From the NCBI GenBank assembly GCA_903825255.1, contig CAIJZZ010000003.1, forward strand, positions 1-39,528: DNA of 39,528 bases. Direction: 5' to 3'. Origin of the DNA: an uncultured bacterium. Lineage in GTDB: Bacteria; Patescibacteriota; Minisyncoccia; Phycocordibacterales; UBA9973. Under the pieces are notes generated by a model. The model did not search any database. It was given only the letters and a program-made list of their open reading frames with translations, and was not told where the DNA came from. Both the position numbers and the translations under genes were made by a program. Positions 5,891 to 14,075 of the stretch are shown piece by piece. Each line of letters opens with the position of its first letter. Position 1 is the first letter of the stretch.

Positions 5891-8293
5891 ATGGAACTAA
5901 AAGATAGGCTAGAACTAAAATTTCGCCTAGATGAAAATCAAAAAAAAGCTTTAAGGAAACTGAAGCTTTTTTCTGTTCATGACCTACTCTTTCACTTCCC
6001 TGTTCGCTACTCAGACATAAGTGAAGTAAAACAAATAGATGAATTGATTCCTGGAGAAGTAGCCACCATCTATGGGAAAATTTCCAAATTGAAAACAAAA
6101 AAAAGTTTCCGTACCAAAATCCCAATGGGCGAAGCAGAGATAGAGGATATTACTGGAAAAATAAAAATCCTTTGGTTTCATCAAGCCTACTTAGCCAAGA
6201 TGATCCATGAGGGACAAAATGTAAAACTCACCGGGAAAGTCACCGAAGGTAAACAAGGAAAATATCTCACTAATCCTGAATTTGAAAAGACACCTGATTT
6301 ACCGATTGATGCACACAATACTTTATTTGCGAAAGACGGAGTACAAATAGATAATTCTGGTTTTTCCTACCCAATTTATCATGAGACTAAAGGTATCACC
6401 TCTAAATGGTTTTATCACGCGATAGAAAAAATTTTAAAAGATAAAACATTGGAGAAAATCGAAGATTATATCCCTACAGAAATTTTAAAAAAATATAATT
6501 TACCAACTTTAAAAACCTCCCTCATCTGGATTCATAAACCAAAAAATAAAAAAGATGCCGAGTCTGCTCGCAAGCGTTTTGCTTTTGAAGAAGTTTTTTG
6601 TATTCAGCTTGAACGCCAACATGACAAAACAGAATATCGTAAAAATAAATCATTTCAAATAATCCCCAATGAAAAGGAAATGTCAGAATTTTTAAAACGC
6701 TTCCCTTTTACCCCAACTAAATCTCAAATAAAATCTATCAATACCATCCTAGAAGATATGGCTAAAACTTTTCCCATGTCTCGCCTTCTTGAAGGCGATG
6801 TGGGCTCTGGTAAAACAGCTGTCGCTGCGACAGCCACATATATAGCTACCAAACAAAGACCCTTCGACTTCGCTCAAGGCAAGCCTCAAAGTTTTGGGAA
6901 TCTTCAGGTCGCTTACATGGCTCCAACAGAAATCCTAGCTACCCAACACTTTGAATCCTTTATTCAATATTTTAAACATTTACCAATAAACATTGCTCTC
7001 ATTACTGGCTCAGGTTGTCGTAAATTCCCTTCTAAAGTTGCTTCAAAAATTTTAAAGCCAAAGGATATGTCTGTAGGAGCCTTCGCAACAAACAAATCTA
7101 ACTTGCCCTTCCAGGACGGAGTGCAAGCGACGGAAGACATATCTTTGGCGGAACAAAATTGGACAAATATTTCTCGCTCTCAACTTTTAAAATGGGTCGC
7201 AAATGGCGAAATACCAATTTTAATCGGCACTCACGCCCTCATCCAAAAAACAGTTAAATTTAAAAATTTAGCACTCGTCGTTATTGATGAACAACATCGC
7301 TTCGGTACTGAACAGCGTAGAAAATTAGTAAGAAAAGATAATATCGCTCCACATTTACTTTCCATGACCGCTACCCCTATTCCCCGCACTCTCGCTCTCA
7401 CTATTTATGGAGACTTAGATTTATCACTTTTAGATGAAATGCCGGCTGGGCGTAAAGAAATAATCACTGAAATTATTACCCCAGATAAACGAGCGGGAAC
7501 ATATGAAAAAGTTCGGGCAGAAATACAAAAAGGCAGACAAGTTTATATTATTTGCCCGAGAATTTTTGAAGCTGAGGAGACGGGCGAAGAGATGTTTGTT
7601 TCAGAGAGCCTTGGTAGGAGCGACGGCGACGGACAGAGAAAATTTTTAACAAAAAATTTTCGTGCTCTCGGAAATAAACATCTTGAAGCGGATCGTGTCC
7701 AACTTGAATTAAGGTCAGTTACAGCAGAAGCGAAACGTTTAAAAAAAGAAGTTTTTCCTGAATATGAAATCGGGGTACTGCATTCCAAAATGTCCAAAGA
7801 AAAAAAAGAAAAAGAGATGGAAAAATTTACTAAAGGATTTTTAAATATTTTAGTAGCTACTTCGGTAATAGAAGTCGGAGTCAATGTCCCGAATGCTACC
7901 GTTATCATCATTGAAGGTGCAGAACGTTTTGGACTTGCTCAACTGCATCAGCTTCGCGGCAGAGTTATAAGAAGTACTCATCAGGCTTATTGCTATGTTT
8001 TTGCTGAAGCTAAAAGCCAAAAAACAATAGATAGATTAAAAGCTTTAAAAACCGCTAAAAATGGTTTTGAATTAGCGGAATTAGATTTAACCCTAAGAGG
8101 TGCTGGAGAATTAGGTGGCACGAAACAATGGGGTATCACTGATTTAGGAATGGAAGCAATAAAAAATATTAAAATGGTAGAAGCCGCCCGCACCGAAGCT
8201 ATCCGCCTGATTTCGGAAAATTCCGAACTTTCTAAATATCCTTTGTTAAAAAGTAAAGTTAAAGAAAAGGTTTCTGAATTCCATTTCGAATAA
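5891..8293 (+). CDS. recG: ATP-dependent DNA helicase RecG, with several in-frame insertions
   Basis: OB wedge domain, Walker A LLEGDVGSGKTAVA, MAPTEILATQHFE, DEQHRFGTEQR, MTATPIPRTLAL, IEGAERFGLAQLHQLRGRV. Confidence 0.95.
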   Translation: MELKDRLELKFRLDENQKKALRKLKLFSVHDLLFHFPVRYSDISEVKQIDELIPGEVATIYGKISKLKTKKSFRTKIPMGEAEIEDITGKIKILWFHQAYLAKMIHEGQNVKLTGKVTEGKQGKYLTNPEFEKTPDLPIDAHNTLFAKDGVQIDNSGFSYPIYHETKGITSKWFYHAIEKILKDKTLEKIEDYIPTEILKKYNLPTLKTSLIWIHKPKNKKDAESARKRFAFEEVFCIQLERQHDKTEYRKNKSFQIIPNEKEMSEFLKRFPFTPTKSQIKSINTILEDMAKTFPMSRLLEGDVGSGKTAVAATATYIATKQRPFDFAQGKPQSFGNLQVAYMAPTEILATQHFESFIQYFKHLPINIALITGSGCRKFPSKVASKILKPKDMSVGAFATNKSNLPFQDGVQATEDISLAEQNWTNISRSQLLKWVANGEIPILIGTHALIQKTVKFKNLALVVIDEQHRFGTEQRRKLVRKDNIAPHLLSMTATPIPRTLALTIYGDLDLSLLDEMPAGRKEIITEIITPDKRAGTYEKVRAEIQKGRQVYIICPRIFEAEETGEEMFVSESLGRSDGDGQRKFLTKNFRALGNKHLEADRVQLELRSVTAEAKRLKKEVFPEYEIGVLHSKMSKEKKEKEMEKFTKGFLNILVATSVIEVGVNVPNATVIIIEGAERFGLAQLHQLRGRVIRSTHQAYCYVFAEAKSQKTIDRLKALKTAKNGFELAELDLTLRGAGELGGTKQWGITDLGMEAIKNIKMVEAARTEAIRLISENSELSKYPLLKSKVKEKVSEFHFE
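6859..6899 (+). repeat. In-frame insert in recG encoding RPFDFAQGKPQSFG
   Basis: CCCTTCGACTTCGCTCAAGGCAAGCC lies between the Walker A helix and the VAYMAPTEILATQHFE motif, where RecG proteins normally have a short linker; short CCTT...AAGG inverted repeat. Confidence 0.6.
7057..7149 (+). repeat. Second in-frame palindromic insert in recG (outer arms GCCAAAGGATATGTCT / AGACATATCTTTGGC)
   Basis: Inverted repeat with a single bulge flanking about 60 nt with nested CTTGC...GCAAG; encodes PKDMSVGAFATNKSNLPFQDGVQATEDISLA between ITGS and NGEIPILIGTHALIQ. Confidence 0.7.
7590..7683 (+). repeat. Third in-frame palindromic insert in recG (copy 1 of the SLG-DGDGQR element)
   Basis: Outer arms AGATGTTTGTTTCAGAGAGC / GCTCTCGGAAATAAACATCT, 28-nt core, inner hairpin GAAAATTTTT-AACA-AAAAATTTTC. 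Confidence 0.85.
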
Positions 8294-11694: not shown

Positions 11695-12096
11695 TGGAGA
11701 TGGGGGAAATTGAATCCCCGTGCAGAAGGATATTGTGAGGAAGTCTACATGCTTAGCACGCTTTTTGTTTTAAATTAAAAAATTCTGAAGCGGGCCAAAT
11801 ATTTTTTAATCGATTCTTTAAGGTTTTCTAGAAAGAGTCAAGAAATTCTCCTTCCCTATCCCGATAATATTATGCCTCAGCTTATATATCGGAAGTCTAT
11901 AAGTGAGACACCAGCTAGTCGCTTACGCGAGAGCTGGAACAAAAGAGAAGTTTGCCATACTGAAGTATGGAGAAACTAAGGCTTTTGCTTTAGCAGTCAA
12001 TTTTGCAATTAACATTTGAGCGAATATTTACGAGATTACGCTCATGCTCGGCATGCATCAATGACAAAAGACCAACTGTCTATGCCTGGCATCCCC
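11695..12096 (-). ncRNA. ssrA: tmRNA (5' end approximate)
   Basis: Minus strand 3' end CTAAGCATGTAGACTTCC...GGGGATTCAATTTCCCCCATCTCCA; PK1 region GCATGCCGAG...ATCTCGTAAA; tag ORF GCAAAATTGACTGCT...CCAGCTCTCGCGTAA; H5 stem CCAGCT...AGCTGG. Confidence 0.92.
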
Positions 12097-12107
12097 AAAT
12101 TTTATTA

Positions 12108-12575
12108 TCAACGTCCATGCCTACCGGCAGGCAGGTCTTTGTATTCTCGCCTAATAGTGCGATCAGTTTCGCGTTCTTTGATACTTTCTCTTTTATCAAA
12201 TTTCTTCTTGCCTTTCACTGAAGCAATATTTATTTTAATTTTCCTTCCTTTATTATACACTGAAAGTGGCACTATAGTCAACTTCTTATTTTTCTCATTT
12301 CCTGCAAGTTCAGTGATTTCTTTTTTAGTTAAAAGTAGTTTTCGATTTTGCAGTGGATCATAATCTTTCGGCGCATTAGCCAGCTGAAAGGGTGGAATAC
12401 TGGCATTGATTAAAAATACTTCCCCGCCCCGCACCACGACGAATGCCCCGTCGAGTGACATTTGCCCCCCTCGCACTGATTTGACTTCCGTCCCTAAAAG
12501 CTCAATACCCGCTTCGTATTTTTCTAGAATTTCATAATTAAATCTCGCTTTTCGATTTTCTGCATAATTAGCCAT
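12108..12575 (-). CDS. smpB: SsrA-binding protein SmpB
   Basis: NRKARFNYEILEKYEAGIELLGTEVKSVRGGQMSLDGAFVVVRGGEVFLINASIPPF; C-terminal basic tail ends LPAGRHGR. Confidence 0.96.
   Translation of the reverse strand: MANYAENRKARFNYEILEKYEAGIELLGTEVKSVRGGQMSLDGAFVVVRGGEVFLINASIPPFQLANAPKDYDPLQNRKLLLTKKEITELAGNEKNKKLTIVPLSVYNKGRKIKINIASVKGKKKFDKRESIKERETDRTIRREYKDLPAGRHGR
12119..12135. repeat. Palindromic repeat at the smpB 3' end (GCCTACCGGCAGGCAGG)
   Basis: Near-palindrome GCCTACCGGCAGGC; encodes LPAGR on the minus strand. Confidence 0.6.
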
Positions 12576-12650: not shown

Positions 12651-14075
12651 ATGACAATACAACCAAAACTCCAAGTAACTGGCTACCGTGGTATCTGGGG
12701 AGAGACATTAACTGAAGAAATAATTAGAAAATTTGTTGGTGCTTACATAAGTTTTATAAAAGAAGATGTAAAAAAAAATAATCCAACGATTTTAATCGGC
12801 CGAGATGGTCGTGAAAGTGGGCTCGAAATAAAAAAAATAATTATTGATAAACTGTCTAAAACAGGTGTCAATCTAATTGACGGAGATATCTTACCTACCC
12901 CGACCATTTTATTTGCCGTACGAAAGCACAAATATGACGGAGCAATTATTATTACTGCATCGCACAATCCAAAAGAATACAATGGCATTAAATTTGTGAC
13001 AAATCAGGCACTTTTGACAAATGAAGCACAAGTGGAAATAATAAAAAAATATTGTGAAGAAGAAAATATCCAGGATGTTGTTTTTGGAAGCCTTGGAAGT
13101 CGCGACGGCGACGGACAGAGAGAATTTTCAACAGAAAATTCTCGTGCTTCTAAAAACAACATCCTGGATATCCCTCCTTTCCCTAAAGAACATGCAGATG
13201 CAATCATTTCTAATATTAATCTTGAGGCAATAAGAGCTAGAAAATTTAAAGTGGCAGCTGATATGATCAATGCTTCTGCTTGTGTGATTGATCCATATTT
13301 ATTTGAACAATTAGGTGCAGAATTAATTCCTCTTAACAATATTCCGGATGGAAAATTCGCCCACAGACCAGAACCAGCCGTAGAAAATCTTGAAGATATA
13401 GGTCACCTAGTTAAAGAATCAGGAGCTGACATTGGTTTTGCTCACGACCCAGATGCAGATCGACTTGTCATAGTAGATGAAACTGGAAAAGTTATTTCCG
13501 AAGATTATACTTTAGCTTTCGGAGTAAAAAACATACTTTCAAAACATCCGGGAGAAAATGTAGTCATGAATCTATCCACTTCCAGTATGGTCTCAGATAT
13601 TGTAGAAAAATATCATGGTAAATGTTTCCGAACAAAAGTCGGGGAATCAAATGTTTTAGAAGGAATTCAGAAAAACAAGGCAATCATCGGAGGTGAAGGC
13701 ACAAGTGGAGTTATTTACCCCGCTATCAATACGAGCCGAGACGGTTTTGTCAGTTTATCTTTTGCCCTAGAGCTTTTAGCTGAAAGAAAACAAACTGTCA
13801 GTGAATGTGTCGCTACACTACCTAAATATTATATGAAAAGAGATAAATGGCCAGTTAGTGAAAACTTAAATGATATTTATCAAAAATTAAAAACTCATTT
13901 TAAAGATGCAGAAGTAAATGAACTAGATGGACTACGCCTAGATTTTAGTGATAAATCTTGGCTTCATATCAGACCTTCAATAACTGAACCGATTATCCGA
14001 CTTTTCGGTGAAGCAAAAACACCTGAACGTGTAGAAGCCTTATTTAATGAAGCAAAGTTGACTTTAAACTCGTAA
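12651..14075 (+). CDS. Phosphomannomutase/phosphoglucomutase, with an in-frame insertion
   Basis: GRDGRESG, active-site TASHNPKEYNGIK, DPDADRLVIVDE, GEGTSGV, C-terminal RPSITEPIIRLFGEA. Confidence 0.94.
   Translation: MTIQPKLQVTGYRGIWGETLTEEIIRKFVGAYISFIKEDVKKNNPTILIGRDGRESGLEIKKIIIDKLSKTGVNLIDGDILPTPTILFAVRKHKYDGAIIITASHNPKEYNGIKFVTNQALLTNEAQVEIIKKYCEEENIQDVVFGSLGSRDGDGQREFSTENSRASKNNILDIPPFPKEHADAIISNINLEAIRARKFKVAADMINASACVIDPYLFEQLGAELIPLNNIPDGKFAHRPEPAVENLEDIGHLVKESGADIGFAHDPDADRLVIVDETGKVISEDYTLAFGVKNILSKHPGENVVMNLSTSSMVSDIVEKYHGKCFRTKVGESNVLEGIQKNKAIIGGEGTSGVIYPAINTSRDGFVSLSFALELLAERKQTVSECVATLPKYYMKRDKWPVSENLNDIYQKLKTHFKDAEVNELDGLRLDFSDKSWLHIRPSITEPIIRLFGEAKTPERVEALFNEAKLTLNS
13066..13171 (+). 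repeat. In-frame palindromic insert in the phosphomannomutase (copy 2 of the SLG-DGDGQR element)
   Basis: Outer arms ATATCCAGGATGTTGTTTTTGGAAGC / GCTTCTAAAAACAACATCCTGGATAT (25/26), core CTTGGAAGTCGCGACGGCGACGGACAGA, inner hairpin GAGAATTTTC-AACA-GAAAATTCTC. Confidence 0.9.

Follow-up and report, generated by a model that had tools for sequence, protein, structure and literature searches.

The recG gene and its palindromic insert

The window (the whole stretch of DNA analysed here, 39,528 nucleotides from an uncultured member of the Patescibacteriota) includes a recG gene whose reading frame is open through a palindromic insert, and a phosphomannomutase/phosphoglucomutase (PMM) gene that harbours a second copy of the same element. 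The features on which the text relies are as follows.

5891..8293, + strand: recG, 800 aa, frame open through the insert (ORF list; Pfam; 1GM5 alignment)
7590..7683, + strand: palindromic element in recG, spanning both outer arms (covariance model R1)
7590..7609, + strand: recG copy, P1, 5' outer arm AGATGTTTGTTTCAGAGAGC (18/20 pairs with 7664-7683)
7611..7636, + strand: recG copy, P2 hairpin (RNAalifold and pair counts from 48 copies; own fold)
7638..7661, + strand: recG copy, P3 hairpin GAAAATTTTT-AACA-AAAAATTTTC (perfect 10 bp)
7664..7683, + strand: recG copy, P1, 3' outer arm GCTCTCGGAAATAAACATCT (18/20 complementary to the 5' arm)
12651..14075, + strand: PMM gene with the second copy (ORF list; Pfam PGM_PMM I-IV)
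13066..13171, + strand: palindromic element, PMM copy (R1 111 bits; fold z = -10.9)
13093-13118: PMM copy, P2
13120-13143: PMM copy, P3

An earlier reading, made from the sequence alone, had described 20-nt outer arms matching at 18 of 20 positions and a perfect 10-bp hairpin with an AACA loop. Both are found exactly, with 54 nt separating the two arms (7590-7609 and 7664-7683) and the hairpin at 7638-7661. The remaining hairpin, P2, consists of a UUG/CAG stem, a G-N-A/G-G-A internal loop, a tandem G.A and the loop GACG at 7622-7625. Arms of this length, match and spacing occur once in recG and in none of its 60 codon shuffles, and the RNA folding that the same reading had called for is likewise favourable, the 121-nt recG region giving z = -4.5 relative to dinucleotide shuffles. 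The window contains two instances of the 18-nt core GACGGCGACGGACAGAGA, at 7622 in recG and at 13104 in the PMM gene, against 0 expected. Judged by core count, codon shuffles and fold z-scores, the recG and PMM copies are beyond chance.

The recG product is intact, with the Pfam domains RecG_wedge, DEAD, Helicase_C and RecG_dom3_C. By alignment to 1GM5, the RecG structure of T. maritima, the insert occupies the loop after YPLIEESDK, with FIVYPLIEESDK before it and LNVKSAVEMYEYL after it, at a point where the T. maritima protein is uninterrupted (YPLIEESDK-LNVKSAVE). The proposal that RecG homologs are normally continuous here is thus borne out by T. maritima, and also by approximately ten congeneric RecGs recovered with an empty loop (e.g. 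CPRIFEPDPEKELALNVKSA). Among 16 congeneric RecGs (~80% identity), this same loop is the stretch free of conserved columns. An AlphaFold model of the motor half of the protein is poor overall (mean pLDDT 55) and is lowest in the insert (25-40).

The window recG has two other inserts of interest. A second palindromic one at 7058-7148 (aa 390-419) has the arms CCAAAGGATATGTCT (7058-7072) and AGACATATCTTTGG (7135-7148), and the segment that houses it (aa 382-430) is missing from T. maritima RecG. A further in-frame, repeat-like insert, CCCTTCGACTTCGCTCAAGGCAAGCC (RPFDFAQGKP; 6850-6904, aa 321-338), is also absent from the T. maritima protein. Elsewhere in the window, at 12016-12575, a GC-rich LPAGR-type palindrome, CCTACCGGCAGGCAGG, adjoins the tmRNA and lies at the end of a short smpB-like ORF.

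A dispersed family with a three-way-junction fold

An exact search for the core in 85,488 species genomes returned 43 loci. Approximately 33 of these carry the whole element and belong to Nomurabacteria, Taylorbacteria, other Paceibacterota and a few MAGs labelled 'uncultured bacterium', while the other ~10, in other phyla, match the 18-mer only by chance. A covariance model of 107 positions built from 48 copies (R1) scores the recG copy at 95 bits (7588-7688). Of 80 genomes in the genus to which the window belongs, 68 have R1 matches, and the 72 strong matches come from 38 of these. The weaker matches, where inspected, belong to related subfamilies that fold alike (CTTGGGAGCGC-GACG-GCGCGAGCACGAG..., CTTGCGCAGG...). 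When the search was extended to 388 genomes sampled from the class, 19 gave R1 matches at E <= 1e-9, spanning several families, and the distant copies that were folded form the same three stems. An additional family found in recG and uvrD (family b) is not matched by the R1 model; it folds like the main family, has identical GACG and AGCA loops, and likely shares descent with it. The kinship that had been proposed between the recG element and its PMM sister is therefore upheld, and now extends to dozens of congeneric copies, located within genes and between them and in either orientation.

The single-stranded consensus of the 48 copies adopts a three-way junction of ~95-110 bp in which an outer stem of variable sequence (P1) encloses two hairpins. 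The consensus for P2 is CUUGG-N-AG[GAGC-GACG-GCGAC]GGACAG, where most copies have the tandem G.A and others have a Watson-Crick GUCGC/GCGAC instead. P3 has the consensus GAAAAUUUUC-AGCA-GAAAAUUUUC, from which the AACA loop of the recG copy differs. Standard pairs fill 88% of the paired cells, compared with 68% in shuffled and 40-52% in slid controls, and changes on both sides are observed at 20 of the 21 P1 pairs.

Similarity among cores is no greater within genomes than between them (p = 0.36), and thus we see no trace of a recent burst. The genome bin from which the window derives is 96% complete with 6% contamination, but many independently assembled genomes underlie the finding.

Copies within genes appear to be translated

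All 38 copies that lie in the sense orientation within genes are in the same frame relative to the element (frame 0, LGRSDGDGQRKF..), and this frame is open in every one; frame 1 is free of stops in just 23 copies, and frame 2 is never open. Among intergenic copies, frame 0 is open in 6 of 21 and interrupted by stops in the other 15 (p = 1e-9). The compact, structured nature of the insert and its presence in essential genes might bring to mind an intervening sequence that is removed from the RNA or bypassed, whether intron-like, byp-like or excised by RNase III. A removed sequence would need no frame discipline, however, and the single open frame of the sense copies argues that the element is translated. 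No Rfam 15 family matches at its gathering score, the sub-threshold matches being microRNA hairpins only, which likewise speaks against such a sequence and yields no known RNA family. We consider an intervening sequence hardly credible, and reject splicing and bypass on the frame data. From the same data we infer that sense copies add a loop of ~30-40 residues (LGRSDGDGQRKF...NFRA) to the host protein.

Antisense copies are found in uvrD (L004, L098), tsaD (L008), uvrC (L023) and a tRNA-dihydrouridine-synthase-like gene (L018, L104). Apart from recG and PMM, the genes are named from our reading of their translations.

The same loops are filled repeatedly

Across congeneric species, the recG loop is either empty or holds one of at least five different palindromes, which besides the main family include SPRGSRFEPKAPKEG, YPYPTSPYIGGG, two palindromes that each occur in a single case, and family b, inserted either way round. 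The fmt gene, for methionyl-tRNA formyltransferase, has a comparable hot spot in the loop before FIVVAYGKI (L196-L225), which again is empty or carries different palindromes; three of its occupants (L207, L212, L217) are simple near-perfect palindromes unrelated to the three-way-junction family. The second site in uvrD (L242-L271) is occupied by a palindrome of some family in nearly all of the congeneric genomes fetched. Subfamilies sf1 and sf3 and family b are all represented there, in both orientations, and three loci (L249, L259, L263) have nested or adjacent palindromes. The PMM site behaves in the same manner as those in recG, uvrD and fmt. Because the same loops are empty in some species and hold differing palindromes in others, we conclude that they have been filled repeatedly. 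An unrelated, non-palindromic segment shared by the RecGs of the whole lineage, which the sequence-only reading had named as the pattern that would contradict it, is absent, and empty sites and several different palindromes are present instead. The RecG comparison that it had recommended was productive for empty sites and not for target duplications, of which we found none that is clean or consistent. Short direct repeats (e.g. TGAAGC, CGAAGCT) flank other recG palindromes (L173, L174) in an inconsistent fashion, and no strain-level pair of empty and filled sites was found.

It is also conceivable that each site received a single ancient insertion that was inherited vertically and diverged in place into the present families, with little or no mobility. 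Cores at the same site are slightly closer than expected (p = 0.015), as this history would predict, and the sf1 and sf3 copies in fmt are alike in arm length and position. The authors of a study of Rickettsia palindromic elements RPE-4, RPE-6 and RPE-7 likewise left undecided whether shared sites are hot spots or one old, diverged insertion (PMC3767692). However, a single family can be found in opposite orientations at one site (L004 and L098 versus L003 and L017 in uvrD, and family b both ways), and clearly different families (a, b and d) also share a site, which together make simple divergence of one insertion impossible. Moreover, insertions are nested in the three uvrD loci noted above, many sites are occupied in a single species, and an inversion of the core would leave the arms in place, yet the wobble polarity of the arms goes with the core (see below). 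We therefore regard a single ancient insertion per site as unlikely.

Outer arms covary, and their wobble pairs follow the element strand

The outer arms change in sequence while they retain their complementarity. For family b in uvrD, ~0.88 of the aligned arm positions pair within the hairpin (as computed by gapped alignment), whereas left arms are only 0.52-0.54 identical between species. At orthologous sites, the columns that are paired in both species fall into 763 without change, 192 with double transitions and 90 with double flips, and the last of these cannot be produced by a single G-U step.

P1 mismatches read on the element strand are strongly biased, with 82 G-U versus 11 A-C (p = 1e-14). 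A recurrent T-G-T context accounts for 32 of the 82 G-U cases and may reflect inheritance from a founder; without it the ratio is 50:11, which is still significant. The bias on the element strand is seen in every class of copy (34:5 in sense, 14:3 in intergenic and 9:1 in antisense copies), where the A-C counts for each class take AG+CT only. When the same mismatches in recG, uvrD and fmt are read on the host mRNA strand, sense copies give 34 G-U to 12 A-C and antisense copies 6 to 13 (p = 0.002), a split with some label noise, since families were labelled only roughly: the tag 'sf23' includes several copies of family b in both orientations, and the antisense set may contain two 'other' palindromes.

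These observations bear on whether the hairpins have a role in the host transcript, such as slowing ribosomes as they pass from one domain to the next, with selection for the fold yielding the covariation of the arms. Such a role would accommodate the massive covariation, the retention of GACG and AGCA apical loops across divergent subfamilies, and the presence of some hairpin at one site in most of the uvrD genes fetched. However, wobble polarity tracks the strand of the element and is reversed on the mRNA in antisense copies, which disfavours selection for host mRNA structure. Furthermore, the same sites accept either orientation as well as unrelated palindromes, many copies are intergenic, and several congeneric recG and fmt genes are hairpin-free. 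We judge host-selected mRNA structure to be decidedly unlikely.

The suggestion that the outer arms are part of the element and evolve under a pairing constraint is borne out, with two qualifications. Their co-evolution is evident in the two-sided changes at P1 pairs and in the greater likeness of arms within a hairpin than between species, but the constraint need not be selection, and selection on the host mRNA is disfavoured by the wobble strand. Beyond ~20 bp from the inner end, moreover, the G-U preference is lost and the arms enter the flanking host codons. The element proper therefore probably extends to approximately 20 pairs, although its outer edge is not sharply defined where arms run into host codons.

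Template switching, or quasipalindrome correction, is known to create and maintain perfect stems and to cause multi-base compensatory changes (PMC8794818). It is a mechanism and not an element, and we invoke it here for the pairing of the arms. As far as the pattern of substitutions can indicate, switching at the DNA level would explain this pairing at least as well as selection does.

The search for a mover and a proposed mechanism

RAYT-like Y1 transposases are common in the genus (Y1_Tnp matches in 55 of 80 genomes), with up to 14 genes per genome in these very small genomes, and short palindromes of their own (e.g. CATGTCAAAGACGGTCTTTGACATG, AATAAACAGGCAAGGCCTGTTTATT) flank several of the RAYT genes. 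REP sequences are 20-40 bp long and mostly extragenic, and GTAG REPs can flank RAYT genes. Some REPs are found within replication or repair genes (PMC3733652). Like GTAG- or CGTC-tagged REPs, the element is a hairpin repeat in a genus that has RAYT genes, and thus it could be a REP-type element mobilised by these enzymes. Several attributes do not conform. The element has three stems and is 95-110 bp in length, and in place of the unpaired tetranucleotide tag at the foot of a REP hairpin the position preceding P2 varies as G-N-A-G. The numbers of Y1 genes and element copies per genome are uncorrelated (rho = -0.05, p = 0.66), Y1 matches are lacking from 12 of the 38 genomes that carry strong copies, and the element was beside the gene in none of the 15 RAYT neighbourhoods inspected. 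A RAYT/REP origin is largely refuted by the copy-number test and these neighbourhoods, and we consider it very unlikely. The element was also not found in the phage, plasmid and viral records searched, and so they offer no match to a carrier of this type. Between the Y1/RAYT comparisons and these records, no transposase or other mover was identified.

With these results in mind, we favour the interpretation, to which we assign a probability of roughly three in four, that the recG insert is a short, non-autonomous mobile palindromic element of Nomurabacteria/Paceibacteria that works in the manner of Rickettsia palindromic elements. The element's own strand would move as a single-stranded hairpin form; that this form matters for spread is suggested by the wobble polarity, which follows the element strand. 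A putative enzyme supplied in trans would drive this movement. The element enters the same permissive loops, in recG, uvrD, fmt, tsaD, PMM and other genes, that other palindromes also fill. In-frame copies in surface loops would then persist because the host enzyme keeps working. The P1 arms would remain complementary mainly through hairpin-templated copying of one arm onto the other by template switching, and such homogenisation in place is suggested by the pattern of changes rather than by a tree.

A bolder version of this mobile-element interpretation, which we present as a tentative and somewhat doubtful possibility, is that a superfamily in Paceibacteria transposes as a single-stranded three-way junction. 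In such a scheme the recognised core would comprise the P2 hairpin with its GACG loop and the P3 hairpin with its AGCA loop, and the outer stem, unconstrained in sequence, would be formed anew at each site by inverse copying of one flank; the habit of residing in genes would have arisen independently of Rickettsia.

Relation to known palindromic elements

Rickettsia palindromic elements (RPE) were reportedly described by Ogata et al. in 2000, and translated palindromes within genes are known mainly from Rickettsia and Wolbachia. RPE and their Wolbachia counterparts (WPE) are ~100-150 bp palindromic repeats that occur as several families per genome in reduced genomes, are inserted in-frame in housekeeping genes and translated as solvent-exposed segments, and can share a site between families (PMC10969869; PMC3767692). 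The elements reported here resemble them in being dispersed palindromes within or close to this size range (38 of 80 genomes have strong copies, 72 in total), in lying in-frame in genes (an open frame in all sense copies, with empty recG orthologs), in populating reduced genomes and in having families that share sites. They differ in belonging to another phylum, in forming a three-way junction with fixed GACG and AGCA loops, in having outer arms that are highly variable yet complementary, in taking both orientations at one site and in sharing their loops with many unrelated palindromes. The Rickettsiales are a distant lineage, and hence homology is not expected. Our best reading is a likeness of behaviour, with no claim of homology, in which these in-gene palindromes seem to parallel, independently, the selfish palindromes of Rickettsia.

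Another precedent is provided by the mitochondrial genes of Nematomorpha, in which translated genes contain near-perfect inverted repeats (PMC6649704). The element shares with these the location of an inverted repeat within a translated gene, but both arms of the nematomorph palindromes encode conserved protein, whereas the element belongs to a dispersed repeat family and supplies an additional loop. Elements of this kind in Patescibacteria were not found in the open-access subset of the literature, where absence is not proof of novelty, and an RPE-like system is apparently new to this group.

Across ~80 congeneric genomes, single loops of recG, uvrD, fmt and PMM are variously empty, filled in either orientation, occupied by different families or host to nested copies. 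This variety makes the hot-spot question directly answerable and favours repeated insertion. The arms also offer a large natural data set for the upkeep of stems by template switching, and the in-frame copies illustrate one route by which minimal genomes acquire protein segments.

The phosphomannomutase copy

The outer arms of the PMM copy are longer than those in recG, at 26 nt (13066-13091 and 13146-13171), and are 96% complementary. Within the window, the element links domains I and II of the enzyme in a single ORF. A near relative (G099; 84% identity over 140 aa) and at least five other species have a PMM without the element that is encoded as two overlapping ORFs broken at the insertion point, and in other species PMM is one ORF with a short, plain linker. 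The window gene is 110 nt longer than that of G099 at this point, a length of the form 3n+2, and the insert thus bridges the two frames. The element may have fused a split PMM, or its loss may have split a fused one. The split genes (L292, L295, L296, L297, L299, L301) have ORFs of ~141 and 308 aa whose overlap is a conserved ATG...TAA. Alternatively, the split PMM could represent a programmed frameshift near a run of seven A residues (A7).
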